From: Deefgea tanakiae | GTDB taxonomy: Bacteria > Pseudomonadota > Gammaproteobacteria > Burkholderiales > Chitinibacteraceae | Direction: 5' to 3' | NCBI RefSeq assembly: GCF_019665765.1 | Contig: NZ_CP081150.1 | Span: forward strand, 620,001 to 684,000 | Length of the DNA stretch: 64,000 nucleotides | Shown: piece after piece, positions 8,025 to 62,391 of the stretch | Position numbering within the stretch: the stretch's first letter is position 1 | Layout: each line of letters opens with the position of its first letter | Made by a program: the position numbers and the translations under genes | Notes under the pieces: model-generated | The model's database searches: none | What the model saw: only the letters and a program-made list of their open reading frames with translations | Told to the model about the DNA's origin: nothing

Positions 8025-8073
8025 GGGTATGTCAATGCCAGTATTTAATCTATTGGTTTAGGTGTAAATACCT
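8025..8073. repeat. 49-bp intergenic repeat, copy R1
   Basis: The element begins GGGTAT and ends ATACCT, spans exactly 49 bp, and stops 1 nt short of the stop codon of the minus-strand permease gene (i.e. directly downstream of that gene). It is one of the more diverged copies of the family described in the findings. Confidence 0.6.
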
Positions 8074-8074
8074 A

Positions 8075-8917
8075 TTATTTAACTGCGCCTGAAGTCAGGC
8101 CGCGAATCAGTTGGCGCGAGAAGAAGGTGTACAAAATCAACACCGGAATCACGGCCAAGCTCAAGCTGGCCAGCACGGCATTCCAGTCGGTCACGTATTG
8201 ACCAATAAATTGCTGTACGCCCAAGGTGACGGTTTGAGTTTCTTCGCCTGGCGCTAAAATCAGCGGGAACCACAAATCGTTCCACACTGGAATCATCGTA
8301 AACACGGCGACGGTGGCAACGGCAGGGCGAATGAGCGGCAAGATCACTTGAAAGAAAATCTTGAATTCGCCGACGCCATCACAGCGCGCTGCTTCTTTGA
8401 GTTCCTTCGGAATCTGCGCGATAAATTCGCTCAAAATCATCACCGCCAACGGCAAGCCTTGCGCGGTGTAGACCAGAATCAGCGCGGTGAGCGTGTTGAT
8501 GAGATTGAGCTGAACAATCAACTCCAAAATCGACACCGTGCCCAAACGAATCGGCACCATGATCCCGATCATCATGTAGATGGCGAGGATTCGGTTACCA
8601 CGGAATTTGTATTCCGACAGCGCCCAAGCCGCCATTGCGCCAAAGAGCAAAATCAAGGCCAATGAGACCAGCGTGACGGTGAGGCTATTGCCGAAATACA
8701 GCATGAAATGCGATTTGGCGATGACGCGCTCAAAGCCGCCGATAAAGAAGGTTTCAGCGGTCGGAAAAGCCAGCGGATTATCAAAAATCGCCGCTTTGGT
8801 TTTGAATGAGTTAATTAAAATTAAAACAATCGGAAACAAGGCCAGTAGCGTGTAACCGCCGAGCATGAAATGCACGCCAGCAGCGGAGAGTGGTTTGGTG
8901 ACTTTTTTCATCATCAA
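8075..8917 (-). CDS. sugar ABC transporter permease (MalG family)
   Basis: The 280-residue inner-membrane protein has about six hydrophobic segments, starting with GYTLLALFPIVLILINSF, and the cytoplasmic EAA loop EAARCDGVGEFKIFF followed by ILPLIRPA, which docks onto the ATPase. This fits the MalG-type half of binding-protein-dependent carbohydrate importers. It is 6 bp downstream of the MalF-type gene. The sequence does not reveal the substrate. Confidence 0.92.
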   Translation of the reverse strand: MMMKKVTKPLSAAGVHFMLGGYTLLALFPIVLILINSFKTKAAIFDNPLAFPTAETFFIGGFERVIAKSHFMLYFGNSLTVTLVSLALILLFGAMAAWALSEYKFRGNRILAIYMMIGIMVPIRLGTVSILELIVQLNLINTLTALILVYTAQGLPLAVMILSEFIAQIPKELKEAARCDGVGEFKIFFQVILPLIRPAVATVAVFTMIPVWNDLWFPLILAPGEETQTVTLGVQQFIGQYVTDWNAVLASLSLAVIPVLILYTFFSRQLIRGLTSGAVK

Positions 8918-8923
8918 TCCCCT

Positions 8924-9841
8924 TTAAAGTTCGTAACGAGTCAGCTTGCGCTGAACGAAGTAAAAGTAAGCACCCACGCCGCATAAAATAACGAGGAACA
9001 TCAACGTCGCCACTGCCGCGCCCATCGTTGGGCTGCCGATTTGGCTTTGGTAGCCAAAGAAGGTGCGGTAAAACAGCGTGCCTAAAATATCGGTACTGTA
9101 GTTCGGGCCTGCGATCGCGCCTTTCACTGAGTAAATCAAATCAAACGCATTAAAGTTGCCGACATAAGTCAGAATCGTCACCAAGCCTAGTGTTGGCAAA
9201 ATCAGTGGGAGTTTGATTTCCCAGAAAATACGCCAGCTTGATGCGCCTTCAACATAGGCCGCCTCGATGATGTCTTCTGGGACTGCGAGTAGTGCGGCGT
9301 AAATCAGCATCATCGGAATGCCGACGAATTGCCAAACTGAGATTAAAGCGAGGGTAATTAGTGCTGAGCCTTCTTCACCAAGCCATGGAGAGAAATACTC
9401 CTCTAGACCGACTTTCGCCATCAGGCCTTCTGATACGCCCCACAGTGGCGATAAAATCAGTTGCCAAATAAAGCCAATAATCACGACCGACAGCAGTGTT
9501 GGTAGGAAAATAAAAGTGCGATATTGCCGCGCAAATTTAAGCCCTTTGAGCGATAAAAAGGTCGCCAAGATCAACCCAATTGGGTTTTGCACCAAAAGGT
9601 GGATTAAGAAAAATTTAAAGTTATTAGCCATCGCATTCCAAAACGAAGTGGACCAAGCCGGATCGGTCAGGATGGTGAGGTAATTACTGAGTCCAACAAA
9701 ACTGTGCTGGCCTGCATCGTTGCTGGTATAAAACCCGAGACGCAAAGTATCAATTAACGGTAATGCACTAAAGACTGAATAAATCAGCACTGCAGGCGCA
9801 AGAAATAAGACGATATGCCAAGGTAGGCGTTTCATCATCAA
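8924..9841 (-). CDS. sugar ABC transporter permease (MalF/UgpA family)
   Basis: The 305-residue membrane protein starts with a short cytoplasmic end and the segment IVLFLAPAVLIYSVF, has about six membrane spans and carries the EAA motif EAAYVEGASSWRIFW with KLPLILP. It pairs with the MalG-type permease that follows after 6 bp. A strong terminator lies between it and the upstream binding-protein gene, so permease expression depends on read-through or on a second promoter. Confidence 0.92.
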   Translation of the reverse strand: MMMKRLPWHIVLFLAPAVLIYSVFSALPLIDTLRLGFYTSNDAGQHSFVGLSNYLTILTDPAWSTSFWNAMANNFKFFLIHLLVQNPIGLILATFLSLKGLKFARQYRTFIFLPTLLSVVIIGFIWQLILSPLWGVSEGLMAKVGLEEYFSPWLGEEGSALITLALISVWQFVGIPMMLIYAALLAVPEDIIEAAYVEGASSWRIFWEIKLPLILPTLGLVTILTYVGNFNAFDLIYSVKGAIAGPNYSTDILGTLFYRTFFGYQSQIGSPTMGAAVATLMFLVILCGVGAYFYFVQRKLTRYEL

Positions 9842-9875
9842 AGCTCCAAGTAAAAGGGGGCCGTAGCGGGCTGAG

Positions 9876-9904
9876 GTAAAAAAACCGGCGGCAAGCCGCC
9901 GGTT
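9876..9904 (-). terminator. Strong intercistronic terminator between binding-protein and permease genes
   Basis: The stem 9883-9891 with 9896-9904 is a perfect 9-bp GC-rich hairpin with a 4-nt loop. On the minus strand it is followed by a run of eight U residues. It lies 29 bp past the binding-protein stop, inside the operon, where partial termination would raise binding protein over permease. Confidence 0.85.
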
Positions 9905-9933
9905 AAGCTCACCAAGGTGAGTGGAGGGAGAAC

Positions 9934-11181
9934 TTATTTAGCTGCGTTGGCGCGTGATTTTTCAAAGCCAGCTTGAATTTGCGCTGCAGCATCTTTTGGC
10001 GTCATTTTGCCGTTCAATACTTGCGAGCTCACATTCCACAATGCGTTTTCCATTGCGGGTTCGCCACGGTTCAAGATTTGTGCATTCAAGCGGATGGTTG
10101 ATTTGCACGTTTTGCGCCAATCGAGCATTTGCTTAGCCACTGGGTCTTGGACTGAAATCAAATGATTTGAGAGCGAGAAAAAGCCAGTGACTTTATTGGT
10201 ATAAAGATCGGCAAATTCTTGTGAACCGAGCCAAGCCAAGAATTTGTAGGCTTCCGCTTTGTTTTTGGCTTTTGGATTCACGCCCATACCGATGTCAGTG
10301 TGGTCAGAGATGTAGCATTGGTCGCCGGATTTAGCCACTGGTGGTGGGAATGCACCGAAGTCCATGCCTTCTTTATTAAAGTAGCCAATATCCCAACTAC
10401 CCGCTGGATATACACCGGCTTTGCCCATCGCGAACATATTTTGGCTGTCGGCGTAGGTTTGTGCCGATGCGCCTTTGCCCATCAACGGCGTCCATTTGCT
10501 CATTTGTGTCCAGGCGGCAACAAATTGTGGATCAGTAAATTTGGCTTTGCCCGCGATTAAAGCTTTACGGCCTTCTTCGCCTTTCCAGTCATTAGGACCG
10601 ATATTGGTAAAGACAGTTTGATTAGATTCCCATTGATCCGCAGTACCTAAAGCGATTGGCGTTTTGCCTGCCGCTTTGATTTTTTCCATCGCGGCATAGA
10701 ATTCAGGCTGAGTTTTTGGAACTTGAATGCCTAGCTCTTTAAACATTTTTTTGTTGTAGAAAAAGCCATGGATCACTGAAGCCATTGGCATGCAGAAGGC
10801 GGTTTTGCCATCATCCGTTTGCCATGCCACTTTGGCCGAAGCAGGGAAGTGTTCCATGCCTGCTTTGCCATCGAGTTTTTCGAGATGGCCTTTTTTGAAT
10901 AGATTGAGTGATACATCGAATGGGCGGCAAGTAATCAAATCACCTGCGGTGCCGCCAGTGAGGCGAGCGGTCAAGCTTGAGTCGTATTCAGTTGGCGCGG
11001 TTGGGGAAAATTTAATTTGAATGCCTGGATTCTTTTTTTGGAATGCAGGAATCAAAACTTCTTCCCAAAGCGTTTTATCATCAACGCGCCATGATTCAAT
11101 GGTCACGGTGCCAGCTGAAGCGGTGCCTGCTGCAAGTAGCGAGGCAAGTAATAGATGACGTGCTTTTAAAACAGTATGCAT
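9934..11181 (-). CDS. sugar ABC transporter substrate-binding protein (family 1)
   Basis: The 415-residue periplasmic protein starts with a signal peptide (basic start, hydrophobic LLLASLLAAGTASA, cleavage near residue 23) and continues as a family 1 extracellular solute-binding protein (mature start TVTIESWRVDD). Aromatic residues such as those in DQWESNQ and GSWDIGYFN fit sugar stacking. It heads the importer operon and is expressed away from the regulatory operon across a divergent region. The sugar is not identifiable; chito-oligosaccharides are a possibility only because of the chitinase-like gene 8 kb away. Confidence 0.9.
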   Translation of the reverse strand: MHTVLKARHLLLASLLAAGTASAGTVTIESWRVDDKTLWEEVLIPAFQKKNPGIQIKFSPTAPTEYDSSLTARLTGGTAGDLITCRPFDVSLNLFKKGHLEKLDGKAGMEHFPASAKVAWQTDDGKTAFCMPMASVIHGFFYNKKMFKELGIQVPKTQPEFYAAMEKIKAAGKTPIALGTADQWESNQTVFTNIGPNDWKGEEGRKALIAGKAKFTDPQFVAAWTQMSKWTPLMGKGASAQTYADSQNMFAMGKAGVYPAGSWDIGYFNKEGMDFGAFPPPVAKSGDQCYISDHTDIGMGVNPKAKNKAEAYKFLAWLGSQEFADLYTNKVTGFFSLSNHLISVQDPVAKQMLDWRKTCKSTIRLNAQILNRGEPAMENALWNVSSQVLNGKMTPKDAAAQIQAGFEKSRANAAK

Positions 11182-11528
11182 TTCGATATATCCTCAAGTG
11201 AATGTGCTTGCTATGCCGTGATCTGCGTCTCGGTGCAATTAAATTATCACCGCTGTATGTGTGACACTAGCGACTACAAAAACAGCCCTGTTTTTGGCAT
11301 ATGTTGTTGAATTTATTGAGCTACATCAATTTTTTATAGGCTTGGGCTGTTACAAATATTCACGGGCTGGGGCTCAAAAATTCGCTGCAATCGCTATTTA
11401 ATAAAGCGTATGCTGTGTAACGCCCTAATTGGGGCAATTTGTAGTACGCGATAAAATGAAATGATTTATTACAATTTCCGATGCATGCTTACGATATAGT
11501 CGAGATAATTCATGGAGAATTGCGACAG
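11182..11528. promoter_or_regulatory. Divergent control region between importer and sensor operons
   Basis: This gap of roughly 350 bp holds the promoters of both operons. Two palindromes stand out: 11277-11296, a perfect 9-bp inverted repeat around a 2-nt centre (CAAAAACAG-cc-CTGTTTTTG), and 11422-11435 (GCCC-taattg-GGGC). Either could be an operator. No clear -35/-10 pair could be fixed by eye and no gene is visible. Confidence 0.55.
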
Positions 11529-12794
11529 GTGTTTGAATCAAAAGTAAAAAATCTACAATACTCGACGATAGGGCTGATTCTGTTGCTGTTTTCAGCGACA
11601 CTACATGCCAGTGAATCGCTGGATGTGTTGCACTGGTGGACGTCGCTCAGTGAGCGGCGCGCGGCTGATTTTTTGCGAATTAAATTAGCCGAAGAAAATA
11701 TCGAGTGGCGCGATGCGGCGATTCCTGGTGGAGCCGGTTTGGGCGCGATGAAAGTACTGAAAAGCCGCGTTTTATCGGGCAATCCGCCGTCGGTAGCGCA
11801 ATTGATTGGCCCAGCTGTTAGTGAATGGGCGGAATTGGGTTTGATTTTGGAGTTAGACAATGCTGCAGGGCGCTGGCAAAGCCAGATGTTCCCGACGATT
11901 TGGCAATTGGTGACGCATCGCCAGCACACCGTGGCGGTGCCTTTAGGCATTCACCGAATTAATACGCTGTTTTATAACAAAAAGCTGTTTGATCGTTTGG
12001 GCTTAAAGCCACCGCATAATTTTTTGGAATTTAAGCGGGTCGCTTTGCAATTGCAGGCGGTTGGTATTACGCCCTTGGCGCAAAGCAATGAAGCATGGCA
12101 GGTGGCGACTTTATTTGAAACGCTGGTGCTGGCCGAATCGGATGTGAAATTTTATCGAGAACTGTTTGTGACCCGAAATCCGCAAGCGTATTTAGACCCA
12201 AAATTTGGGCAAGCTTTAACTCGCTTGCGGCAATTACGCAGCTATACGGCTAAATCAGGTCCTGATTTGCCATGGACTGATGTGTCACGGCAATTTGCCA
12301 GTGGCCATGCAGCGATGGTGGTGATGGGCGATTGGATGAAGGGTGAATTAATGGCACAAGGGCTGAGTGTCGATGTCGACTTTGCTTGTGTGGCCGTACC
12401 CAATACCGACAACACGCATTTATATAGTGTCGATACGATGGTGATGTTTGCGGGTGATTACAGCAAGCAATTCAACCAAGAGCGCTTTGCGCAAATTATT
12501 GTCTCGCCAGCCGTGCAGTTAGGCTACAGCAAACTCAAAGGCTCAGTGCCGGTGCGCAAAGACATCGACATCGCTAGTTTAGATAGTTGTGGTAAAAATT
12601 CTTGGCGTGCCTTTGGGAGAGGTACGGCTTACCAAGCGCCGAGTTTGGTGCATCGTATGGCGGCAGACGATACGTTTAAAGACGCGATGGTGAAACAGAT
12701 TCAAGCATTTTATTTAGATGAAAAAATTTCAGTAGCTGAAACACAGCAACGCTTGGCGGCGATGGTGCGCGCATTGAATCGGAAAGAGGATTAA
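11529..12794 (+). CDS. periplasmic solute-binding-like protein, putative sensory subunit
   Basis: This is a family 1 solute-binding protein of the glucose/mannose type, with LDVLHWWTSLSE at the mature start, then AMKVLKSRVLSGNPPS and the lobe motif NTLFYNKKLFDRLGL. A GTG at 11529 preceded by GGAGAA about 10 nt upstream gives 421 residues with a clean signal peptide (h-region TIGLILLLFSATLHA); an ATG at 11481 is the alternative (437 residues) but lacks a ribosome-binding site. Its gene is followed after 4 bp by a response regulator and kinase and has no permease of its own, which suggests ligand sensing rather than transport. That role is an inference. Confidence 0.82.
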   Translation: MFESKVKNLQYSTIGLILLLFSATLHASESLDVLHWWTSLSERRAADFLRIKLAEENIEWRDAAIPGGAGLGAMKVLKSRVLSGNPPSVAQLIGPAVSEWAELGLILELDNAAGRWQSQMFPTIWQLVTHRQHTVAVPLGIHRINTLFYNKKLFDRLGLKPPHNFLEFKRVALQLQAVGITPLAQSNEAWQVATLFETLVLAESDVKFYRELFVTRNPQAYLDPKFGQALTRLRQLRSYTAKSGPDLPWTDVSRQFASGHAAMVVMGDWMKGELMAQGLSVDVDFACVAVPNTDNTHLYSVDTMVMFAGDYSKQFNQERFAQIIVSPAVQLGYSKLKGSVPVRKDIDIASLDSCGKNSWRAFGRGTAYQAPSLVHRMAADDTFKDAMVKQIQAFYLDEKISVAETQQRLAAMVRALNRKED

Positions 12795-12798
12795 TGGA

Positions 12799-13515: not shown

Positions 13516-15013
13516 TGCGGCATGGCAGTGGATTCGCTCCCTAGGCCAACGTGCGCGTGTGATGAGCACACCGCATTGGTTAGAGCGCATCCTGCCGTCG
13601 CGTTTATTGTCGCGGCTTTTGTGGGTGATGACGATTGGTGTTTTGACTTCGCAGTTGATTGGCAATGCCATTTGGGCGAATTATCTACAAAATAAGTCGG
13701 AGCAAGAAGTCTCGGCTGCGGCCGATCATATCGCACGTGGTGCGGCGAGTGCGGTGCAGTTTTTCCAAAGTTTGCCACCGAATTATCGGCCCTTAGTCAT
13801 TCAGCAATTGCGTGAAATGGGCGGCACGCGTTTCTTTGTGAATGTGAATGACAGCCCAATTGAGGTAAAGAGTATCTTATCCAACCCATTGCCAGAAAAG
13901 GTGGTGAAGGTAATACGTCATGTTTTCGAGCAAGAGTTACCGCGTTTGGGTGATGTAAAGATTAACTTTGCTTGGCCTAATGAGTTGGCGGTCGCCAGTG
14001 ATGGCATGACGGTGGCGCAACTACCCGATCACTGGGTCAAAAATACCTTATTGATGGAGCCGCGCCCAGCACCCGTATTGGTGATTCAAACCGAAATCGA
14101 ACCCGGGCACTGGTTGTATTTGGCCACGTTGATGCCAGATCCTTATTTTCTCGATAACAGTAATCCAATGCCACCTGAGCGCTGGCTGTTGCAATTTGCC
14201 ACTTTGATTACGGTACTGCTGTTGAGTTGGGTGGTGGTGCGATGGATTACCCGACCGCTAGCCGCGCTATCCGAAGCCGCCGAGGCGTTTGGCAAGGGTG
14301 AATCGCCGCATTTACCCGCCGAAGGCAGTGAAGAGTTTATCCGCACCGCACATGCGTTCGGCGCGATGCGCGAACGGATTCAGCGCTATTTAGAAGATCG
14401 CGAAAAGCTATTTACTGCGATTTCACACGATTTACGCACCCCCATTACGCGCTTAAAGCTACGCACCGAAATGCTCGATGATGAAGATTTGCGGGTTGAG
14501 TTTCATGAAGACCTTGATGAACTCGATATGATGGTCAAAGGTGCGTTGCAAAGCGTGAAAGACAGTGACATCCATGAGAATCGGACTCGGATCCGGCTTG
14601 ATGCGATGTTAGGCCGTATGGTGAAAGACGCTCGTATGGCGGGGCACGAAATTGCCTATAGCCGCTGTGGTTTGTGGGTGATGGCCAAGCCCTTAGCCTT
14701 GAAGCGGGCGCTGAGTAATTTGATTGATAACGCTTTGTTTTACGGTAAAAAAGTCGAGATCTCGGTACTTGAAGGCGTTGGTAAAGTCGTGATTATTGTG
14801 CGCGATCACGGGCCTGGTGTTCCCGAGGAGGCGCTGTCGACCTTGTTTGATCCTTATGTACGACTTGAGCATGGCCGGCATAGCAATAGTCATGGTCACG
14901 GTTTGGGATTAGGCATTGCTCGTAATATTATTCAAGCGCATGGCGGTGTGCTCGATTTGAGTAATCATCCTGATGGCGGTTTACAAGCGATGATTACGCT
15001 ACCGCAAGATTGA
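13508..15013 (+). CDS. sensor histidine kinase, EnvZ-type
   Basis: The 501-residue inner-membrane kinase has a first span near residues 34-56, a periplasmic domain of about 150 residues, a second span at about 228-246, a HAMP linker, the H box TAISHDLRTPITR (His307), N box NLIDNALFYG, G1 VRDHGPGVP and G2 GHGLGLGIA. It forms an operon with the regulator (8-bp overlap, ATG within the regulator's last codons) and the solute-binding-like protein. A model in which that protein contacts the periplasmic domain is attractive but unproved. Confidence 0.92.
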   Translation: MFNAAWQWIRSLGQRARVMSTPHWLERILPSRLLSRLLWVMTIGVLTSQLIGNAIWANYLQNKSEQEVSAAADHIARGAASAVQFFQSLPPNYRPLVIQQLREMGGTRFFVNVNDSPIEVKSILSNPLPEKVVKVIRHVFEQELPRLGDVKINFAWPNELAVASDGMTVAQLPDHWVKNTLLMEPRPAPVLVIQTEIEPGHWLYLATLMPDPYFLDNSNPMPPERWLLQFATLITVLLLSWVVVRWITRPLAALSEAAEAFGKGESPHLPAEGSEEFIRTAHAFGAMRERIQRYLEDREKLFTAISHDLRTPITRLKLRTEMLDDEDLRVEFHEDLDELDMMVKGALQSVKDSDIHENRTRIRLDAMLGRMVKDARMAGHEIAYSRCGLWVMAKPLALKRALSNLIDNALFYGKKVEISVLEGVGKVVIIVRDHGPGVPEEALSTLFDPYVRLEHGRHSNSHGHGLGLGIARNIIQAHGGVLDLSNHPDGGLQAMITLPQD

Positions 15014-16309: not shown

Positions 16310-16358
16310 GGGTATATTGATATAAGCATTGTTTAATAAGTGCTTTAGAAATATACCC
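16310..16358. repeat. 49-bp intergenic repeat, copy R2
   Basis: It begins GGGTAT and ends ATACCC with exactly 49 bp between the outer bases; the inverted repeat extends 2 bp further on each side, giving 11 perfectly paired bases (16308-16318 with 16350-16360). Inner bases AAGCA and TGCTT also pair. It lies 2 nt past the stop of the minus-strand transglycosylase gene. Confidence 0.8.
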
Positions 16359-19223: not shown

Positions 19224-19438
19224 TTGTTGGCGCGTACTTGAGCATCGAGGGAAATGGGTCGGAAGTGCGACTAAAGTGAGTTTTCCCCAGATGAGGAATA
19301 GCATTTCATCTCGATGGATGTGTCGTGGTATATCTCATACAGTATGCTTAGCTATGCATTTATAGTATTTATCTAGCGGGATATACTTCTCGTATTACTT
19401 AAAAATGCTGATCATTTAAGATCACTGAGGAGACTGTT

Positions 19439-20738: not shown

Positions 20739-21434
20739 ATGACTTCATCGACTGCTACTTTTGGGCAAGCCTTTAAAATCGGCGCTCTAGAAACCTTACC
20801 GCTGCAAATGGGCGTTGCGCCGTTTGCTTTGATTTTTGGCACGCTCGCCGGGCCTGCGGGCTTGCCGCCTTGGGCCGCGTTGGCGATGTCGGTGCTGGTC
20901 TATGCGGGATCGAGCCAATTTCTGGCGCTCAGTTTGCTTGCGGCGGGTGCGGCGCTACCCGTGATTATTTTCACCACGCTGATTGTCAATCTGCGCCACG
21001 CGCTGTACAGCGCCACCTTGCAATTACCGTTTTCGCATCAGCCATTTCTACGCCGCGCAGCCTTGGCTTTTTTCCTGACCGACGAGACTTTTGCCGTGGT
21101 ACAAAGCGCCGCCAGCCAGCAGATTGCGCCGCTCGATGCGGTGATGTTCGGATCTGGACTGGTCAATTACACGACTTGGGTCAGTTTTACCGCGCTTGGC
21201 ATTGTGCTCGGGCAGAATATTCCAGAGTTGCAACATTGGGGCTTGGAGTTTGCAATGGTGGCGACGTTTACCGGAATTGTGGTGCCATTATTGGTGACGC
21301 GTGCGCAAGTTATTTGTGCGGTGGTCGCAGGCGCTACAGCACTGCTGGCGCATGCTTTACCGTATAAATTGGGTTTGCTTTTGGCTGTGTTATTTGGCGT
21401 ATCGGCTGCTATGCATTTTAGGGAAAAGGCTTGA
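20739..21434 (+). CDS. azlC: AzlC family amino-acid exporter subunit
   Basis: The 231-residue membrane protein matches AzlC, the large subunit of the AzlCD branched-chain amino-acid exporter, with MSVLVYAGSSQFLAL and IVNLRHALYSATL, and several membrane spans. The ATG at 20739 is preferred over an in-frame ATG at 20643 because the latter precedes the terminator hairpin of the upstream gene. Its stop overlaps the azlD start (TGATG). Confidence 0.88.
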   Translation: MTSSTATFGQAFKIGALETLPLQMGVAPFALIFGTLAGPAGLPPWAALAMSVLVYAGSSQFLALSLLAAGAALPVIIFTTLIVNLRHALYSATLQLPFSHQPFLRRAALAFFLTDETFAVVQSAASQQIAPLDAVMFGSGLVNYTTWVSFTALGIVLGQNIPELQHWGLEFAMVATFTGIVVPLLVTRAQVICAVVAGATALLAHALPYKLGLLLAVLFGVSAAMHFREKA

Positions 21435-21760
21435 TGGATATACTATATGCATTGCTTTTATTGCTTGGCATGGCTGTGGTGACCTATGGTTTGCGGGTAT
21501 CATTTTTTCTGCCCGGTGTCGGCGAGCGTTTCCCGCCCAAACTGCGCCAAGCCGCAGCTTATGTGCCCGTCGCGGTATTAACGGCGATTATCGTGCCGGA
21601 GATTTTCATCCCACGCAACGAATGGCAATGGCTCAGCCCGCAACTTGCCGGAGCGATTGCGACAGGCCTGATTGTCTGGCGCAGCAAAAAACTGATGCTC
21701 GGGATTGCTGTGGGAATGGCGGTGTATTATTTATTTAGATTGTTGACCCTAAATTTTTAA
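21434..21760 (+). CDS. azlD: AzlD family amino-acid exporter subunit
   Basis: A 108-residue protein with about four membrane spans, of the AzlD type (TYGLRVSFFLPG, AVLTAIIVPEIF). The ATG overlaps the azlC stop codon and AAAGG stands just upstream, which indicates translational coupling. With AzlC it is expected to form an efflux carrier of branched-chain or related amino acids in the inner membrane. Confidence 0.88.
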   Translation: MDILYALLLLLGMAVVTYGLRVSFFLPGVGERFPPKLRQAAAYVPVAVLTAIIVPEIFIPRNEWQWLSPQLAGAIATGLIVWRSKKLMLGIAVGMAVYYLFRLLTLNF

Positions 21761-21762
21761 TT

Positions 21763-22743
21763 CTATAAATCCGTCGGCACTTGCGGCATAAATGCACCAC
21801 TGCCGATAATTCCCCATGCCATCCAGCCAGCAATCAACACATAAATAATTCGGGGTAGCCATGCTGCGAATTGTGTGGCGGTATGTTCTAGATCAGCGCT
21901 GAGATTTGCCGCGTAGCGTTGTAACATTTCGGGTAATGTTCCGCTGGTCTCGCCAGTTTTGACCATTGCGATTAGTGTTGCATCCGCCAGCCATGGCACA
22001 AAGCTGAGTGCTTCGGTAAGGCTTTGCCCACGTTGTAATTGCCGCAGTAGTGGCTTGCATTGTGTTTCTAGATAGGCGCTGTGGATTGTCGATTGCGCGA
22101 TGGGGATTGCTTCAAACATCGATACGCCCGCGTGTAGTAGTAGCGCGAGGCTATCAACAAAATCACGTTGTTTGCTGCGCAAATACCAAGCACCAAAGAC
22201 AGGGGTTTGCAATAGTACTCTTGTGATGTCAGAGGATGTATCGGTCTCAATGCTTTTGAATATGATGTTTCCAAGCAGATACATTGCAGCAATAGCAGCA
22301 AGTGGCATTATGATGCCCAATAAATAGCCGCCAGCACTGAGGGTGCCCATGATGAGTGCAGGTAATGGATTGATCAATAATCCGAGTACCAACATCAGCG
22401 CGGGTAGAGCCAATTTGGCACGAATTTGTTTACTTAAACGTGCGTGCAGCGCGGCTTGCTCTGCTAAACGTGTATAGGTAGCGGCTGGGCTACCGGCTTG
22501 GCAAGCGGCGGCAATCAGCGCGGTTTCGAGTGAGTTAAAAATTCCAGCTTGTGCGCCAGCTTGCGCAATGGTTTTTCCACGCGTGAGTGCTTTGCGCATG
22601 GATTCTAAATGAGGCTGGTAACACGCCGGCAAGTTGATGGTGGCCAATGCATGACCCGTTGCTAATCCCGCGCGTTCTAAGGCCGCTAACTGCGAAAAGA
22701 GTTCGGCGCGGACTTGCCAAGGAAGAGTGGATTTGCTTTTCAT
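21763..22743 (-). CDS. type II secretion system F-like membrane protein (orphan)
   Basis: The product (326 residues from the ATG at 22743) has two copies of the T2SSF domain, each ending in hydrophobic helices: LFSQLAALERAGLATG ... LALPALMLVLGLLI and SLALLLHAGVSMFEAIPIA ... MVKTGETSGTLPEMLQRYA. GspF and PilC are the inner-membrane platform proteins of type II secretion and type IV pili; both are usually about 400 residues, so this one is short. An ATG at 22806 is possible but would overlap the opposite promoter at 22789-22817. No other secretion or pilus gene is next to it. Confidence 0.82.
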   Translation of the reverse strand: MKSKSTLPWQVRAELFSQLAALERAGLATGHALATINLPACYQPHLESMRKALTRGKTIAQAGAQAGIFNSLETALIAAACQAGSPAATYTRLAEQAALHARLSKQIRAKLALPALMLVLGLLINPLPALIMGTLSAGGYLLGIIMPLAAIAAMYLLGNIIFKSIETDTSSDITRVLLQTPVFGAWYLRSKQRDFVDSLALLLHAGVSMFEAIPIAQSTIHSAYLETQCKPLLRQLQRGQSLTEALSFVPWLADATLIAMVKTGETSGTLPEMLQRYAANLSADLEHTATQFAAWLPRIIYVLIAGWMAWGIIGSGAFMPQVPTDL

Positions 22744-22817: not shown

Positions 22818-22828
22818 ACGGTTTGAAC

Positions 22829-23003
22829 GACAAGAGAGGCGCCTTGCCCAAGTAGTATTGCTGAGGAAATCATGTTCCGACGAAGCAATACGAGGGGGAG
22901 CAAGGCCGAAGTGTTGACGGACGTGATTTCCGTGAACGCTGGTTGCAGAGGCTAAATCCTCTGGACTGTCAGTTGCTTATGCAACTGGAGTGCTCTGGGT
23001 CAT
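22829..23003 (+). promoter_or_regulatory. Lysine riboswitch aptamer (L box)
   Basis: Conserved L-box segments occur in the right order: AGAGGCGCCTTGCCCAAGTA (22835-22854), GAGGGGGAGCAAGGCCGAAG (22892-22911) and the P4 region. The helices can be drawn: P1 GAC+AGAG (22829-22836) with CTCT+GTC (22993-23001), P2 CCTTGC/GCAAGG (22842/22900), an extension GTATTGC/GCAATAC (22855/22885), P3 GTGTT/AACGC with CGGA/TCCG, P4 CAGAGG/CCTCTG (22946/22958) and P5 AGTTGC/GCAACT (22971/22981). The class binds L-lysine and shuts off lysine biosynthesis or uptake genes; the gene it leads is a DapA homologue. P1 is rather weak. Confidence 0.93.
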
Positions 23004-23054: not shown

Positions 23055-23080
23055 TCTCCAATCGTCTTTTAAATTGGAGA
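23055..23080 (+). promoter_or_regulatory. Expression platform: Shine-Dalgarno sequestering hairpin
   Basis: TCTCCAAT (23055-23062) pairs perfectly with ATTGGAGA (23073-23080), which contains the ribosome-binding site of the following gene (start 23086). TGGAG at 22986-22990, at the base of the aptamer, could instead pair with CTCCA (23056-23060) and release the site. This fits translational control by the riboswitch; no terminator with a U tract is seen in the leader. Confidence 0.75.
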
Positions 23081-23976: not shown

Positions 23977-24025
23977 AGGTATTTATGTCTAGGCTTTATT
24001 TTATAAGGGCTGGATGGCAATACAT
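23977..24025. repeat. 49-bp intergenic repeat, copy R3
   Basis: It begins AGGTAT and ends GGCAATACAT, exactly 49 bp, 12 nt downstream of the dapA stop, in the convergent gap before the membrane-protein gene. Confidence 0.8.
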
Positions 24026-26187: not shown

Positions 26188-27345
26188 ATGAGTGAGCCTA
26201 GCCTGTTTCAAGAGTTAGCCGCTGATTTGGCCGAGCGGAAAGCCAATCACTTGTACCGAACACGGCGGGTATTAGATTCGCCGCAAGGCGCGCGCGTTAC
26301 GGTGGATGGGCGCGAATTACTCAATTTTTGCAGCAACGATTATTTGGGTTTGGCCAATCATCCAAGTGTCGTCGCCGCTGCGCAGGCGGGCGCAGTGCGC
26401 TGGGGCGTCGGCAGTGGCGCTTCGCATTTGGTCGCAGGGCATTTTGCCATCGAGCAAGCGCTTGAAGATCGCCTCGCGGCGTGGGCGGGAAAACCCGCGG
26501 CGATCACCTTATCGACGGGCTATATGGCTAATTTGGCGGTGGTAACGGGTTTAGTCGGTCGCGGTGACGCGGTCTTTGCCGATAAAACCAATCACGCCTC
26601 GCTCAATGATGCGATGGCTTTGTCGCGCGCCGACGTCAAACGCTTTGCCCATAGCGATGTGGCCGCGCTGGAACGTTTGCTCGCAGCGAGTACAGCCAAA
26701 CGCAAAATGATTATCGTCGACGCCGTATTTAGCATGGACGGCGACATCGCGCCGCTGGCGGAAATGCTCGCACTGGCCGAATCGTATGATGCGCTGCTGT
26801 ACATCGACGATGCGCATGGTTTTGGCGTGCTGGGCGACGGGCGTGGCACTTTGGCCGAGTTAGGTTTATCGTCACCTCGTATTATCTATATGGCGACTTT
26901 GGGAAAAGCGGCGGGCGTTGCAGGGGCGTATATTGCTGCAGAGCAAGTGGTCATTGACTATCTGATTAATACTGCCAAGCCATATATCTATACCACTGCT
27001 GCACCACCCATGATTGCTGCAGCGATGCACGCGAGTTTGGACGTGATTGAGTCGGACAGCGCACGGCGCGACACTTTGCATCGCCATATTGCGTATTTCC
27101 GCGATTCGTTGGCAGGTACTTGCGCATTGCTACCTTCACGCACGGCGATTCAGCCGATCTTGTTGCCCGATGTCGCCACTGCCGTCGCCGTCTCGCAAGC
27201 ACTCTTTGACGCCGGATTCTGGGTCGCCGCGATTCGCCCACCGACCGTGCCGACACCACGCCTGCGGGTGGTGCTCAATGCGGCACATACCGATGAGGAA
27301 GTCGCAGCACTGTGCAAGATGCTGCAGCGGATTTTGAGTGCTTAA
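26188..27345 (+). CDS. bioF: 8-amino-7-oxononanoate synthase
   Basis: The 385-residue PLP enzyme joins pimeloyl thioester and L-alanine in the first biotin-ring step. It shows FCSNDYLGLANHP, GSGASHLVAGH, VDAVFSMDGDIAPLAE, DDAHGFGVLG, the PLP-lysine segment ATLGKAAGVAGAY and AIRPPTVP. The ATG at 26188 aligns with the E. coli BioF start; a TTG at 26119 with GAGG upstream is the main alternative and would add 23 residues. No BirA-type operator was recognised. bioH lies 2.1 kb downstream on the same strand. Confidence 0.92.
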   Translation: MSEPSLFQELAADLAERKANHLYRTRRVLDSPQGARVTVDGRELLNFCSNDYLGLANHPSVVAAAQAGAVRWGVGSGASHLVAGHFAIEQALEDRLAAWAGKPAAITLSTGYMANLAVVTGLVGRGDAVFADKTNHASLNDAMALSRADVKRFAHSDVAALERLLAASTAKRKMIIVDAVFSMDGDIAPLAEMLALAESYDALLYIDDAHGFGVLGDGRGTLAELGLSSPRIIYMATLGKAAGVAGAYIAAEQVVIDYLINTAKPYIYTTAAPPMIAAAMHASLDVIESDSARRDTLHRHIAYFRDSLAGTCALLPSRTAIQPILLPDVATAVAVSQALFDAGFWVAAIRPPTVPTPRLRVVLNAAHTDEEVAALCKMLQRILSA

Positions 27346-27347: not shown

Positions 27348-27396
27348 AGGTATATTACTGCAGACATTAATCAATAATGCCTAGAAGGCAATACAT
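27348..27396. repeat. 49-bp intergenic repeat, copy R4
   Basis: It begins AGGTAT and ends GGCAATACAT, exactly 49 bp, 2 nt after the bioF stop and 14 nt before the next start codon. The interior AACATT-like/AATGCC bases make it an imperfect palindrome. Confidence 0.82.
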
Positions 27397-31040: not shown

Positions 31041-31089
31041 ATGTATTGCTATGAAGGCTTTGTTAATTAATGGCTACAGTTAGATACAT
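31041..31089. repeat. 49-bp intergenic repeat, copy R5
   Basis: It begins ATGTATTGCT and ends ATACAT, exactly 49 bp, between the minus-strand ubiH-family gene and dsbC, 5 nt past the stop of the former. Its interior ATTAATG.CT.CAGT matches copy R4 read on the other strand at most positions. Confidence 0.82.
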
Positions 31090-35596: not shown

Positions 35597-35866
35597 ATGA
35601 GCGAGCTAAAACAACTCAAAGGCCTCGGCCCCAAAAGCCAAGCAATGCTGGCGCAAGTGGGGATTGTGAGTGTCGAGCAATTTATGGCGACCGATCCCTT
35701 TGTGATCTACGCGCAACTGCACGCGATCATTCCTAATTTATCGCTGAACATGTTGTATGCCATGATGGGTGCGCAGGAGAATGTGCATTGGCAGATGATT
35801 AAGGCAGAACGGAAAATAGAAATTCTGATGCGTTTAGATGATATAGGGCTTGCGCCGCGAACTTAA
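35597..35866 (+). CDS. TfoX C-terminal domain protein
   Basis: An 89-residue protein consisting only of the helical C-terminal domain of TfoX/Sxy regulators: LKGLGPKSQAMLAQVGI is a helix-hairpin-helix-like start, followed by VSVEQFMATDPFVIYAQL and LNMLYAMMGA. Full-length TfoX (about 200 residues) turns on competence genes in gammaproteobacteria; free-standing C-terminal domains are common and uncharacterised. Its place three genes after comEC is suggestive only. Confidence 0.82.
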   Translation: MSELKQLKGLGPKSQAMLAQVGIVSVEQFMATDPFVIYAQLHAIIPNLSLNMLYAMMGAQENVHWQMIKAERKIEILMRLDDIGLAPRT

Positions 35867-35894: not shown

Positions 35895-35943
35895 GTGTAT
35901 TGCCATCAAACTATTGATAAATAAAGCGCAGATCAACATACCT
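35895..35943. repeat. 49-bp intergenic repeat, copy R6
   Basis: It begins GTGTATTGCC and ends ATACCT, exactly 49 bp, 28 nt after the stop of the TfoX-type gene. Its orientation relative to the upstream gene is the opposite of copies R3 and R4. Confidence 0.78.
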
Positions 35944-39254: not shown

Positions 39255-39668
39255 ATGTCATTGTTTCGTGTGTTTGATGTGGCTTCGTCAGCAATGAATG
39301 CGCAATCTGCGCGTTTGAATGTTGTGGCGAGTAATTTGGCTAATGCTGAGTCAGTGACTAGTTCAAATGGTCAGCCGTATCGAGCTAAACAGGTTGTATT
39401 TCAAGCTTCGCCAGTCAATACCCATTCTAAATCTGCTATCGGAGTCAAAGTGGCTGGCGTCATTGAAGATCAAGCGCCACCGCGTTTGGTGTATGACCCC
39501 AAGAGCCCGTTTGCTGATGCGAATGGCTATATTGCGATGCCGAATGTGAGTGTGGTCGAAGAAATGACCAATATGATTTCAGCGTCGCGTGGTTATCAAA
39601 CGAATGTGGATGTTATGAACACCGCCAAAACATTACTGATGCGTACGTTGAGCATTGGTCAGGCTTAA
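39255..39668 (+). CDS. flgC: flagellar basal-body rod protein FlgC
   Basis: The 137-residue rod protein has the N-terminal [16 protein letters not shown] motif and the C-terminal [19 protein letters not shown] motif shared by rod and hook proteins. It follows flgB by 11 bp. Exported by the flagellar type III system without a cleaved signal. Confidence 0.95.
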
Positions 39669-45045: not shown

Positions 45046-45094
45046 ATGTATTGCCGTGCGGTAATTGAATTTATTAGCTCCCAGTAAAATACTG
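45046..45094. repeat. 49-bp intergenic repeat, copy R7
   Basis: It begins ATGTATTGCC and ends AAAATACTG, exactly 49 bp, 3 nt after the flgI stop and before the sigma-54 site of flgJ. The last three bases differ from the other copies. Confidence 0.72.
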
Positions 45095-57483: not shown

Positions 57484-57795
57484 TTAGGCAAAATGGCAAA
57501 CGTAATGCAGTGTTTCGGTGGTTTCGATATCAAAGCTCGAGTTACCTGGTACATCAAAAGACTGGCCTGCAGAGTATGTCTTTGTAGACGTTTCGCCAGA
57601 TAAGGTCACATTGCATACCCCGGCAATAACTTCCATGATCTCCGGCGCGCCGGTGTTGAAGTTGAGTTTAGAAGGTAAAATAACGCCGACCGTTTTTTTG
57701 CTGCCGTCAGCAAAAACAACTGTGTGGCTCACGCATTTGCCGTCAAAATAAACATTGCCTTGTTTCAATACTGAAACATTATCAAATTGGCTCAT
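57484..57795 (-). CDS. ppnP: pyrimidine/purine nucleoside phosphorylase PpnP
   Basis: A 103-residue cupin of the DUF1255 family ([44 protein letters not shown]). The E. coli homologue YaiE phosphorolyses several nucleosides. The ATG at 57795 is 7 nt after AAGGA; the ATG 6 bp upstream is too close to it. Confidence 0.9.
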
Positions 57796-57818
57796 TTCCA
57801 TATCCTTAAAATGTAGAT

Positions 57819-58040: not shown

Positions 58041-58062
58041 GGCTATTCTCTGCATTTGTGTA

Positions 58063-58091
58063 AAAACGGCTCAGAAGATCCGAGCCGTTTT
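58063..58091. terminator. Terminator after argG
   Basis: A 10-bp stem (58063-58072 with 58082-58091) with A/T runs lies 20 bp past the argG stop and just before the DUF2788 gene. Confidence 0.88.
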
Positions 58092-58110
58092 GGTCGTATT
58101 GGGTTAAAGC

Positions 58111-59331
58111 TTATTTATTCAAACGACCTGCAATACGCATGCGCAGTGCGTTGAGTTTGATAAAGCCGCCAGCATCAACTTGGTTGTATGCGCCGCCATC
58201 GTCATCAAACGTGGCAATGTTCATATCAAACAATGAGTTGGTTTTCGAGTCACGGCTCACCACGATGACGTTGCCTTTGTACAATTTCACACGTACCCAG
58301 CCATTGACGGTTTCTTGTGTCGCATCAATCAACGTTTGCAGAACTTTGCGCTCAGGTGCCCACCAGAAACCGTTGTAAATCATACTGGCGTAACGCGGCA
58401 TCAGATCATCTTTCAAATGTGCTACTTCGCGATCCAGCGTGATCGATTCAATGGCGCGATGCGCTTTCAGAATGATGGTGCCGCCCGGTGTTTCATAGCA
58501 GCCGCGTGATTTCATGCCGACGTAGCGGTTTTCGACCAAATCCAAACGGCCAATACCGTGCTTGCCGCCGAGTTCATTGAGCTTGGTTAGCACGGTGGCT
58601 GGCGACATCCGTACGCCATTCAATGCCACGATATCGCCTTTTTCAAATTCGATATCAAGGTATTCAGCTGCATCAGGTGCGGCTTCTGGGCTCACGCTCC
58701 AGCGCCACATGGTTTCTTCGGCTTCGGCCGATGGGTTTTCCAAGTGACGGCCTTCAAAGCTAATGTGTAGCAAGTTGGCATCCATTGAATAGGGTGCGCC
58801 ACCGTTTTTGTGCTTCATATCGACTGGGATATTGTTCTTTTCAGCGTAAGCCAATAGTTTTTCGCGTGACAATAGATCCCATTCGCGCCAAGGTGCAATC
58901 ACTTTAACGTCTGGTTTTAGGCCGTAGTAACCGAGTTCGAAACGAACTTGGTCGTTACCTTTGCCGGTTGCGCCGTGAGATACCGCGTCCGCATTGGTCG
59001 CGTTGGCGATTTCAATTTGGCGTTTGGCGATCAATGGACGAGCGATGGATGTGCCGAGCAGGTACTCACCTTCGTACACTGTGTTGGCGCGGAACATCGG
59101 GAACACAAAGTCACGAACGAATTCTTCGCGCAAGTCGTCGATAAAAATATTTTCTGGTTTGATGCCAAATTGCAGTGCTTTTTGGCGTGCAGGTTCGAGT
59201 TCTTCACCTTGGCCTAGGTCAGCAGTGAAGGTCACCACTTCGCATTGATAAGTGTCTTGTAGCCATTTCAGAATCACTGACGTATCTAAGCCGCCGGAAT
59301 AGGCGAGAACTACTTTATTAATATCGGACAT
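58111..59331 (-). CDS. argG: argininosuccinate synthase
   Basis: The 406-residue enzyme joins citrulline and aspartate with ATP in arginine synthesis. It has the PP-loop [30 protein letters not shown] and [14 protein letters not shown]. Length matches the short (non-E. coli) type of ArgG. It is the third gene of the argF-exporter-argG set, 46 bp after the exporter. Confidence 0.96.
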
Positions 59332-59377
59332 GCGGATTGCCTTAGTCTTAAGATGTTCAAAAAGAAAAATACGAATA

Positions 59378-60001
59378 TCAGTTCAGTGCTAGGCGTAAGC
59401 CAAAGCTCACAAACAAAGTGCCGACTAATTTATTTAGTACGGTTTTCAGCCAGATTTTAGCTGAAAGTCGGCGCGATAGGCTGCTGCCAACCAAGATTAA
59501 CATTGTTAAATAGCTGATACTGACGAACTGTACGATCATGCCTAGCGCAGCAAAAGTGTGCCAAACGTGTGGGTAGTTTGGATTTACAAATTGCGGGAAG
59601 AACGCCATGAAAAAAAGAATTGCTTTGACATTGACCAGTGAAATTGCCAGCGCAGAACGGAAAGCTTTACGTGTTGAGTTATGAGTTGATTCGACTGATT
59701 GGGTATGTTGCTGTGACTTAGAAAATAGGGCGCTTAGACCGATATACGTCAGATAGGCTGCACCTAAATATCGCACCACATCAAAAGCAATTGGATTGGC
59801 TTTCATTAGTGAGGCAACACCTAAACTAGCCGCAAGCATTAAAATCAAGTCACCAACGACGATGCCAGTGGCAGCAGCAAAACCAGCTTTTCGACCGCGG
59901 GTGCTAGCCATTGTCAGTGCAAAGAGTGAGTTTGGGCCCGGCACTAAAATAATCAGTACCGTACCAAGTACATAGGCCCAAAGATCAGTAATGCCAAACA
60001 T
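59378..60001 (-). CDS. LysE/RhtB family amino-acid exporter
   Basis: The 207-residue protein has about six membrane spans and the LysE-superfamily N-terminal motif [14 protein letters not shown], then [11 protein letters not shown]. Its start overlaps the argF stop by one base (TAATG), so translation is probably coupled. Placement between argF and argG suggests export of arginine, citrulline or an analogue, but RhtB-type proteins have broad specificity. Confidence 0.88.
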
Positions 60002-60915
60002 TAATCGTCCACACGACCTAGCAGTAGGTATTCAATTACCGCTTTTTGAGTGTGCATGCGGTTTTCCGCTTCTTGCCACACCACTGATTGTGGGCCATCA
60101 ATGACTTCCGGATCGACTTCCTCGCCACGATGTGCAGGTAAGCAATGCATGAAAAGCGCTTCTGCTTTGGCTTGCAGCATCAATTTTTCTGATACTTTGT
60201 AATTGATGAAGTCTTTTTTGCGCTGTAGTGTTTCGCGCTCATAGCCCATTGAAGTGCAGACGTCGGTAGTGACGATGTCGGCGTTTCGAGCAGCTTGATA
60301 TGGGTCGTTAAATGTTTCAAAAACATCGCTGCCGTAGGTTTGCCCATCCAGCACTGTCATTTCATAACCACGTGGGCAGGCAAGATTCAATTTGAAATTG
60401 AAGATTTTTGCCGCTTGCAACCAAGTGCGGCTGATATTATTGCTATCGCCGATCCAGCATACTGTCTTCCCTTCAATTGGACCATGATGTTCGATATACG
60501 TGAAAATGTCGGCCATGATTTGGCAAGGGTGGTATTCATTAGTCAGGCCATTGATCACTGGAACCAAAGAGTTTTCGGCAAAGCGCTCGATAATGCTTTG
60601 CTCGAAAGTACGCACCATGACGATGTCGACCATGCGGCTCATGACTTTTGCGACGTCTTCAATCGGTTCGCCACGGCCCAATTGCGTGTCTTTGGACTGC
60701 AAGAACATCGCATGTCCACCCAATTGGAACATACCTGCTTCAAACGATACTCGAGTTCGAGTCGAAGATTTTTCGAAAATCATGCCCAATACTTTGCCAG
60801 GCAGAGGCTGATAGAGCGTGCCTGATTTGAGGCGTGCTTTTAATTTTGCAGTCCGTTCAAACAGGTATTGGTATTCTTCAAGAGTAAAATCGCTGAACTG
60901 TAGGTAGTGACGCAT
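60001..60915 (-). CDS. argF: ornithine carbamoyltransferase
   Basis: The 304-residue enzyme makes citrulline from ornithine and carbamoyl phosphate. It has the carbamoyl phosphate site SSTRTRVSFE, NGLTNEYHPCQ and the ornithine loop HCLPAHRGEEV. It begins the argF-exporter-argG unit. No clear ArgR box was recognised in the 211-bp divergent region before it. Confidence 0.96.
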   Translation of the reverse strand: MRHYLQFSDFTLEEYQYLFERTAKLKARLKSGTLYQPLPGKVLGMIFEKSSTRTRVSFEAGMFQLGGHAMFLQSKDTQLGRGEPIEDVAKVMSRMVDIVMVRTFEQSIIERFAENSLVPVINGLTNEYHPCQIMADIFTYIEHHGPIEGKTVCWIGDSNNISRTWLQAAKIFNFKLNLACPRGYEMTVLDGQTYGSDVFETFNDPYQAARNADIVTTDVCTSMGYERETLQRKKDFINYKVSEKLMLQAKAEALFMHCLPAHRGEEVDPEVIDGPQSVVWQEAENRMHTQKAVIEYLLLGRVDD

Positions 60916-61078
60916 TCAATTTTGTCCTGGTCGATCGGCGCTGAGCACGCGACCAAATGGCTGAAAAAACGATTATTTTCAGTGTTATACCCCAAAAAAG
61001 CAAGTATTTTGCTGGATTTGTGGAGCTTGTACTTATTCATGGCGTGCTACATATTTCATGCGCCGCAGCATAGGGCGG

Positions 61079-61087
61079 TGGTATAAT
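61079..61087 (+). promoter_or_regulatory. Extended -10 promoter of the DUF3579 gene
   Basis: TGGTATAAT is a perfect extended -10 element 40 bp before the ATG at 61127; no good -35 is seen, as is usual for this promoter type. Confidence 0.65.
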
Positions 61088-61126
61088 GCGGACAGTTCTC
61101 GAATTAAACTCTGCTTGGCGCCCACA

Positions 61127-61426
61127 ATGATCTGCAATCCTTACGAAATTATCATTCAAGGTATTACCAGTAACGGACGTGAGTTCCGTCCTAGTGATTG
61201 GGCTGAGCGCCTATCGGGTATTCTCTCTACTTTTGGTGTTGACCAAAAACTGTCATACGCACCTTTTGTACGTCCTATGGTGCACAACAATGTGCGCTGC
61301 GTTGCCGTTGATCGACAGTTAGAAAAAGTTGATCCACGCGTCTTTGAATTTATTATGACATTTGCAAAAGACAATGACTTGCAAGTGGTTGACTGTCGAT
61401 CTCTGATTCAAGGCAATCAGCACTAA
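61127..61426 (+). CDS. DUF3579 domain protein
   Basis: A 99-residue protein that matches DUF3579 of betaproteobacteria (IIQGITSNGREFRPSDWAER, VRPMVHNNVRCVAVDRQLE). The function is unknown; it has no membrane span or signal. The gene is divergent from argF, a neighbourhood in which this family is often met. The start at 61127 follows the promoter better than an ATG at 61058. Confidence 0.85.
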   Translation: MICNPYEIIIQGITSNGREFRPSDWAERLSGILSTFGVDQKLSYAPFVRPMVHNNVRCVAVDRQLEKVDPRVFEFIMTFAKDNDLQVVDCRSLIQGNQH

Positions 61427-61555
61427 ATTTCGTTTTTTGAAATTTCCATCCTACATTTCTGTAAAAAATCCATGCCTCCTATTGTTGCGTTGCAGCATGT
61501 GATCTATGCTGTGGATATTGCCCATAAGGGCGTAGACCGTGAATAGGGGATTGCC

Positions 61556-62296
61556 ATGAGACTGAAAGATAAAGTTGCCATCATTACTGGTTCTGCTAGC
61601 GGTATCGGCGAGGCCACGGCCATCAAATTTGCTGCCGAAGGCGCAAAAGTGGTTGTTTGCGATGTAAATCAAGCGGGGGTGGATCAAGTAGTCGCGGCCT
61701 TAGTGGCTGGAGGTGCTGATGCGGTCGGTTTCGTGGTCGATGTCACAAAGACGGATACGATTGTTGCGATGGTGGCAGCAGTCAAAGAAAAATACAATCG
61801 CATTGATGTGTTGGTGAATAACGCGGGTATTACCCAGGATGCGCAGTTATTTAAAATGACCGATGATCAATTTGATCGCGTGATCGATATCAATCTGAAA
61901 GGCGTTTATAACTGCACCAAGGCAGTTGTCGATACGATGATTGCGCAAAATTCAGGCGTGATCTTGAATGCGTCATCTGTTGTTGGTGTGTATGGTAATT
62001 TTGGTCAAACCAATTATGCCGCTTCAAAGTTTGGTGTCATTGGCTTTGTAAAAACTTGGGCAAAAGAGCTTGGCAAAAAAGGCATTCGCGCCAATGCGGT
62101 TTGCCCTGGTTTTGTGGCAACGCCGATGGTAACAGCCATGCCAGAAAAAGTGTTGCAAGGTATGGAAGAAAAGGTGCCTATGCGTCGTTTGGCCCAGCCA
62201 TCAGAAATTGCGAGCGTGTATGCTTTCTTGGCTTCTGATGAAGCGAGCTATATTAATGGCGCGGCGATTGAAGTGACTGGTGGTTTGACTTTGTAA
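61556..62296 (+). CDS. 3-oxoacyl-ACP reductase-like short-chain dehydrogenase (FabG family)
   Basis: The 246-residue NAD(P)-dependent reductase has [18 protein letters not shown], the catalytic Ser in LNASSVVG and the Tyr-x3-Lys of NYAASKFG, with the C-terminal [12 protein letters not shown] of FabG. It could reduce 3-oxoacyl-ACP, or acetoacetyl-CoA for polyhydroxybutyrate. It stands alone, not in a fab cluster, so the FabG name is a family-level call. Confidence 0.85.
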
Positions 62297-62309
62297 TTTT
62301 TTGATTTGC

Positions 62310-62342
62310 AAGAAAAAACCCGCTTTCAGCGGGTTTTTTCTT
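62310..62342. terminator. Terminator after the FabG-like gene
   Basis: A 14-bp stem (62311-62324 with 62328-62341) with A and T runs; the core is ACCCGCT/AGCGGGT. It acts for the plus-strand gene and may serve the convergent transcript. Confidence 0.92.
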
Positions 62343-62391
62343 GGGTATTTGTTTATACGCACTATTTAAATTAACGTTCAAAGATATACCC
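62343..62391. repeat. 49-bp intergenic repeat, copy R8
   Basis: It begins GGGTAT and ends ATACCC, exactly 49 bp, 1 nt past the stop of the minus-strand L,D-transpeptidase gene and directly after the FabG-gene terminator. Confidence 0.78.

Follow-up and report, generated by a model that had tools for sequence, protein, structure and literature searches.

A 49-bp two-fold symmetric site dispersed along the chromosomes of Deefgea, Chitinibacter and Chitinilyticum

Dispersed DNA words and the 49-bp site

The DNA uptake sequences (DUS) of Neisseriaceae, the uptake signal sequences (USS) of Pasteurellaceae and the HIP1 palindrome of cyanobacteria are, among described systems, the nearest in kind to the element reported here. 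This element is a 49-bp site with the words GTAT and ATAC at its ends, exactly 37 bp apart, in a 64,000-nucleotide stretch of Deefgea tanakiae (contig NZ_CP081150.1, positions 620,001 to 684,000; this whole stretch is called the window). A preliminary description, made from the letters of the window, had listed eight copies as elements placed directly after stop codons, and had considered a REP-like or miniature mobile element or an RNA 3'-end structure. Our analysis revealed a site that recurs in and between genes along whole chromosomes, with exact spacing and nearly all-or-none ends, that is conserved between species and restricted to one clade of three genera.

Several other dispersed chromosomal words are read by a protein, namely the matS sites of MatP, SlmA sites, the FtsK orienting polar sequences (KOPS) and Chi. 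MatS and KOPS are regionally or strand biased, and Chi is directional and short. With about one copy per 5 kb, Chi has a density similar to that of the present site, but none of these four words is 49 bp long with all-or-none ends. Repetitive extragenic palindromic (REP) elements and Correia elements are dispersed and intergenic, have palindromic ends, and are mobile or linked to a transposase. The site described here shares their dispersal, their palindromic ends and the presence of intergenic copies, whereas mobility, a link to a transposase and restriction to intergenic DNA were not found for it.

The DUS and USS resemble the site in that they are present in at least hundreds of copies, in and between genes and often near gene ends, change by point mutation, and are clade-specific with slight differences between genera. 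They differ in having a directional core of 9-10 bp, whereas the site is 49 bp long and two-fold symmetric, with a 37-bp gap and no halo of one-mismatch forms; any role of the site in uptake would be putative. The uptake sequence of Haemophilus influenzae has an extended consensus of 29 bp (PMC1939737). HIP1 is likewise an abundant palindrome found over the genomes of a clade, with an unsettled function, but it is a contiguous octamer, GCGATCGC, tied to DNA methyltransferases, and not a long, gapped palindrome (PMC4390886). A gapped palindrome of Bradyrhizobium japonicum, GAATCCAT(N)23ATGGATTC, occurs in 52 copies, 47 of them intergenic, and lies mostly near gene 3' ends, with no known function (PMC5217627). 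Gapped form, position and lack of a known function are shared by the present site, which differs from the Bradyrhizobium motif in letters and gap, in its approximately 900 copies, nearly half of them genic, and in its presence in three genera. Palindromic pairs with no known function near gene 3' ends were also found in other bacteria in the same survey of gapped motifs, with different letters, shorter gaps and far fewer copies than here (PMC5217627). A search of the open-access literature found no description of the site, in agreement with the preliminary description, which had recognized no described family.

Structure, number and conservation of the site

The structure of the site was analysed in a sample of 864 kb of the window's genome (800 kb fetched plus the 64-kb window), which contains 216 copies of GTAT-N37-ATAC. 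The distance from GTAT to ATAC shows a single sharp peak, with 216 pairs at 37 bp, 22 at 38 bp and about 8 at other gaps, and the perfect form at gap 37 lies 62 standard deviations above background (216 against about 8 expected). End forms with one mismatch show no excess at this gap (239 against 228 expected, standard deviation 23). Places with a good interior (score of at least 8) have perfect ends in 119 cases and one mismatch in seven, under an interior model that was trained on perfect-ended intergenic copies; the shuffles used for this end-mismatch test and for the bit scores below are simple models. The pairs at gap 38 form a minor class of 50-bp sites, about 14 above the background of about 8.

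The logo consists of a half-site of about 21 bp, rkGTATtkcnhtstAgsCaTT (consensus roughly RKGTATTKCNHTSTAGSCATT), and its mirror image, with a weak A/T preference at the centre and contacts approximately one helical turn apart. Its four end letters are fixed by the search itself, and the all-or-none character of the ends rests on the separate mismatch tests. The intergenic model amounts to about 36 bits, a large share of which comes from the ends by construction; 184 places reach 12 bits under this model, against none in one shuffled copy. The interior consensus is weaker in coding than in intergenic copies. Overall, the ends are nearly all-or-none and the spacing is exact, while the interior drifts.

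Orthologous sites were compared in two genomes of the window's genus over an alignment of 358 kb (91.8% identity), in which each kept pair counts twice, as it is seen from both sides. Among coding observations, 87 of 95 retain both ends and the gap, as do 72 of 74 intergenic and 6 of 6 partial ones; for these words at other gaps the figure is 108 of 210, coding and intergenic taken together. Intergenic interiors have an identity of 0.82 without gaps, and their flanks have 0.79-0.84 with gaps counted as differences and 0.83-0.89 with gaps left out. Internal gaps cancel in four intergenic copies, so that the length remains 49. The sites at G022:C1:373664 and 391606 have kept ends and length in comparison with their counterparts in genome G019, with nearly the whole interior different. 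In coding copies the differences between species are point changes, whether gains or losses. The first 400 kb of genome G022 have little orthologous overlap with the window's genome (G000). The proposal of the preliminary description that selection acts on the ends and their spacing is strongly supported by the exact gap, the mismatch test and the conservation between orthologues.

The whole genome contains 911 copies of GTAT-N37-ATAC, against 28 for the backwards control, and 639 copies of the longer pattern from the preliminary description, [ACG][AGT]GTAT-N37-ATAC[ACT][CGT], against eight when read backwards. We conclude that about 880 sites per chromosome are kept by selection (911 minus the approximately 28 expected). 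A genome-wide excess over chance had been set beforehand as a test of the feature; the excess is overwhelming and the feature stands.

All 15 genomes of Deefgea, Chitinibacter and Chitinilyticum, a small group of aquatic bacteria, including named type strains, contain 428 to 760 copies of the longer pattern (seven of seven genomes of the window's genus, six of six of a second and two of two of the third). The remaining 28 of the 43 genomes of the family, Chitinibacteraceae, are unenriched, with 2 to 24 copies and controls of 0 to 13. An order-wide sample of 300 genomes gave 259 to 519 copies of GGTAT-N37-ATACC in four genomes from the carrier genera and at most eight in all others. When an 18-letter form was searched across 84,980 species, 80 of the 83 stretches found belonged to the three genera; the other three matches, in Saprospiraceae, Lachnospiraceae and an Emergencia record, are at about the chance level for 257 billion bases. 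Differences between the genera are slight, in that Chitinibacter favours GGGTAT and Deefgea uses ATGTAT too, in a comparison covering 55 of the 83 loci plus the fetched stretches. Three stretches of viral contigs match the 18-letter form, two of which are the same phage sequence, and one site is found in a GC-rich stretch of a contig from a viral collection (L274, 1173-1221).

Sites in the window and placement along the chromosome

The window contains 19 matches to GTAT-N37-ATAC; the longer pattern matches 14 times, whereas 100 shuffles gave 0.12 matches on average and 2 at most. A recheck found the eight elements of the preliminary description to be exactly 49 bp long at the coordinates given for them. 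Their stop-codon gaps (1, 2, 12, 2, 5, 28, 3 and 1 nt) match the lists of open reading frames (ORFs), the stop used for the element at 35895 being the end of an 89-amino-acid ORF, at 35866. The same lists place three of the eight in convergent and five in same-direction spacers and none, as had been claimed, in divergent ones, and five of the eight have (G/A)TGTATTGC(C/T) at one end when both strands are counted. The formulas proposed for the ends do not fit every copy, as the one at 45046 ends in ATACTG and the one at 35895 starts with GTGTAT. Eleven copies had not been listed, ten of which overlap listed ORFs (the exception is 19340). The stop-codon rule of the listed copies is partly a selection effect, because the unlisted copies in the window nearly all overlap ORFs. 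The 19 sites are given below without strand, the eight listed ones first; handles beginning with G denote genomes of relatives.

8025..8073, intergenic 49-bp site adjoining the stop of 8075-8917 (-); same place in G020
16310..16358, 49-bp site in a convergent spacer; kept in G020, and the G018 spacer also has a site
23977..24025, 49-bp site in a convergent spacer, 12 nt past a gene of the dihydrodipicolinate synthase (DHDPS) family
27348..27396, 49-bp site in a same-direction spacer; kept in G018, same junction in G020, absent in G022 and G019
31041..31089, 49-bp site in a same-direction spacer; site in the G018 spacer, absent in the aligned G020, G022 and G019 spacers
35895..35943, 49-bp site in a same-direction spacer, 28 nt past the 89-amino-acid ORF; absent in the aligned G018 spacer
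45046..45094, 49-bp site 3 nt past the flgI stop; no relative aligned
62343..62391, 49-bp site in a convergent spacer; no relative aligned
1899..1947, site within a histidine-kinase gene; the paralogue has a site at 4403
4403..4451, site within the paralogous histidine-kinase gene
7100..7148, site within an ABC-transporter ATPase gene; kept in G020
13870..13918, site within a gene; ends kept in G018 and G020
19340..19388, intergenic site; no counterpart found in relatives
21397..21445, site that overlaps two successive ORFs, at the end of the first and the start of the second; ends kept in G018, G020, G022 and G019
22236..22284, site within a gene; G020, G022 and G019 keep the ends, and G018 has a change in one of them
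26926..26974, site within an aminotransferase gene; all five aligned relatives keep the ends, among them G006 of a second genus
39375..39423, GTAT-N37-ATAC match within an ORF; no relative aligned
57572..57620, site within a nucleoside-phosphorylase gene; no relative aligned
59701..59749, GTAT-N37-ATAC match within an ORF; no relative aligned

For the element at 23977, a site also lies close to this end of the gene in G018, G020 and G006; none was found in G022 and G019. The two histidine kinases encoded at 1823-6744 are adjacent paralogues with TPR and GAF domains, and each has a 49-bp site at the matching place. At the Rfam gathering score the only match in the window is a lysine riboswitch (22826-23003, plus strand, 110 bits), directly upstream of the DHDPS-family gene at 23074, and the sites match no family.

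By location, the 216 copies of the 864-kb sample divide into 110 intergenic, 97 coding and 9 partial copies, an approximate split obtained with a home-made gene caller. The intergenic copies lie between same-direction genes (39 + 31), between convergent genes (37) and in divergent spacers (3); the last are depleted, with about 30 expected from spacer length. A stop-facing neighbour is present for 107 intergenic copies. Of these, 66 are no more than 28 nt from the stop, with a few overlapping it, and the other 41 are more distant. The placement directly after a stop codon therefore applies to part of the copies: it was confirmed for these 66, and it does not hold for the 41 more distant ones or for the 97 inside genes. 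Two outcomes had been named as counting against the preliminary description. A lack of excess was not observed, while hits do spread through coding regions, and this spread tells against both the mobile and the RNA explanations. The 191 coding copies of six stretches are found in each of the three frames and over the full length of the gene, less often toward either end.

Spacing is more even than a placement null, itself a simple model, in all six stretches, and clearly so individually in three, two of which are mutually orthologous. The fractions of null runs that gave the observed value or a lower one are 0.13, 0.016, 0.004, 0.002, 0.29 and 0.32, the third and fourth stretches being the orthologous ones. 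Two distant 400-kb stretches have equal density, with 98 and 99 copies, and a replication bias was rejected on this ground. Four contigs (75.6 kb), labelled plasmid-like from their ORFs, contain a single poor match, against about 19 predicted from the chromosomal density; a fifth small contig, chromosomal in look, contains three sites. No site occurs in a GC-rich 20-kb part of a 43-kb contig (L268, G005:C2:1-20000), which has a repeated block and an ORF resembling a drug-efflux transporter. The densest cluster of the sample comprises six sites in 2.7 kb, one with a one-letter end change (G000:C1:1852050-1854765), flanked by genes that we take, from their protein starts, to be IMP-dehydrogenase-like and aspartyl-tRNA-synthetase-like.

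Possible functions of the site

Fixed ends, an inner contact, free placement in genes and spacers, avoidance of promoters and the absence of an RNA signature are what a symmetric DNA-binding protein with many docking places on the chromosome would be expected to show. We tentatively interpret the sites, with a confidence that falls a little short of even, as binding sites of a putative clade-specific symmetric protein that docks chromosome-wide, most likely for chromosome organisation. Each element would be a two-fold symmetric recognition site of about 49 bp, read most likely along one face of the helix by a symmetric protein, either a dimer or a pair of dimers. This protein would read GTAT at each end, with centres 41 bp or about four turns apart, plus a weaker TAG one turn inward. 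The approximately 880 selected sites, which keep clear of promoters and have a more even spacing than chance would give, could act as docking points for bridging, anchoring or compaction of the chromosome. The restriction to one clade suggests that the binder was gained there. We infer the protein, the dimer and the architectural role. Chromosome organisation is ranked highest for two reasons: the sites are chromosomal and evenly spread, and their ends are broken so seldom that individual sites seem to matter.

Several observations weigh against docking for chromosome organisation. No protein binding the 49-bp sites was found, and the binder is thus putative. The class at gap 38 is above background, and the gap length is therefore not absolutely fixed. 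The presence of some intergenic copies varies between species, and in two of the nine genomes of a non-carrier genus (g9, G027-G035) the counts are roughly double those of the backwards control (24 against 12 and 22 against 12). Mirror complementarity at positions 7-13 is also in slight excess among intergenic copies. Segregation motifs are often positionally biased, and no such bias was seen between the two chromosome stretches compared. Furthermore, architecture alone does not account for the concentration just past stops, and most of the evidence would equally follow from a strict uptake receptor.

The main rival is a self-recognition signal for natural transformation, in which receptor-biased uptake and recombination would accumulate and keep the sites, as in Neisseria and Haemophilus. 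We consider this explanation rather unlikely, although it accounts for most of the facts. The genome contains hundreds of copies (911) in and between genes, which are gained or lost by point changes, lie more evenly than chance, are rare between divergent genes and are nearly absent from the plasmid-like contigs. ComEC is encoded within the window and the genome has matches to ComP-type pilins; the approximately 36 bits of the intergenic model exceed what is needed for finding sites inside a cell; and unaligned blocks of two genomes contain 10 sites against 18.9 expected, some of these blocks lying at a stretch edge and perhaps not being species-specific. Against an uptake signal stands the absence of near-matches: one-mismatch forms of known uptake sequences are over-represented, falling with mismatch load (PMC1939737), and no such excess exists here (239 against 228, standard deviation 23). 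In addition, the site is long and symmetric, unlike directional cores of 9-10 bp. The ComP-type pilin family PF16732 is present in 43 of 43 genomes of the family, carriers and non-carriers alike, and its distribution does not separate the two groups.

A transcription roadblock or insulator, in which a protein bound at gene ends halts RNA polymerase before the next gene, is improbable. The 66 of 107 intergenic copies close to a stop and the scarcity of copies in divergent spacers (3 of 110) agree with such a function, but the 97 of 216 copies within genes are spread along the gene, as seen for 191 copies in six stretches, and are conserved there, and T-runs show no asymmetry. A large regulon, with these as the binding sites of an ordinary transcription regulator, is still less probable. 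Although the symmetry is of the regulator type, promoters are avoided, as the three divergent copies show, and the divergent-spacer sites in the fetched stretches have no common flanking gene, orthologous pairs excepted. A promoter regulon and self-regulation of the binder were rejected because of the few divergent copies and because a common flanking gene was found in orthologous stretches only.

The two functions proposed in the preliminary description are the weakest. We give hardly any credence to a mobile or REP-like element inserting after stop codons: the sites are dispersed, constant in length and frequently just past stops, and several intergenic cases of presence and absence exist between species, but in the orthologues aligned the coding copies show no element-sized gap and vary by point changes, the divergence of intergenic interiors is about that of their flanks, the plasmid-like contigs are nearly empty, and an extragenic location is contradicted by the 97 of 216 copies in genes. 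The co-occurrence of a REP-associated transposase suggested at that time was not found, as the REP (Y1) transposase PF01797 has no match in 5 of 15 carriers (the window's genome, G019, G006, G010 and G011). An attachment site of a large serine integrase was rejected as well, since PF07508 is present in 3 of 15 carriers only and not in the window's genome.

A hairpin in the RNA at the 3' ends of transcripts, as the target of a factor that binds or cuts it, is equally implausible. In its favour are the slight complementarity excess of intergenic copies mentioned above and one orthologous pair (site at 2071757) with long arms in both species and different letters. However, coding copies show no consistent excess of complementarity, double changes that keep complementarity number 3 against 3.1 expected in 41 intergenic pairs, so that there is no sign of compensatory change, and nearly half of the copies lie within genes, along their whole length. 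A run of TTTT within 25 nt occurs downstream in 32 of 132 cases and upstream in 32 of 132, and an intrinsic terminator was rejected because T-runs are equal on both sides.

A hitherto undescribed chromosome-wide organising system, in which a clade-specific putative protein reads two GTAT boxes exactly four turns apart and bridges or anchors the chromosome at about 900 evenly spread sites, genic and intergenic, is possible but doubtful. If true, this system would be a bacterial counterpart, in logic, to loop-anchor sites. A site that is long, strict, frequent and kept even in genes implies that something reads the whole chromosome in these bacteria. It would either organise the chromosome, as a site of a new kind, or mark DNA for uptake, as a self-recognition signal that is new and unusually strict.

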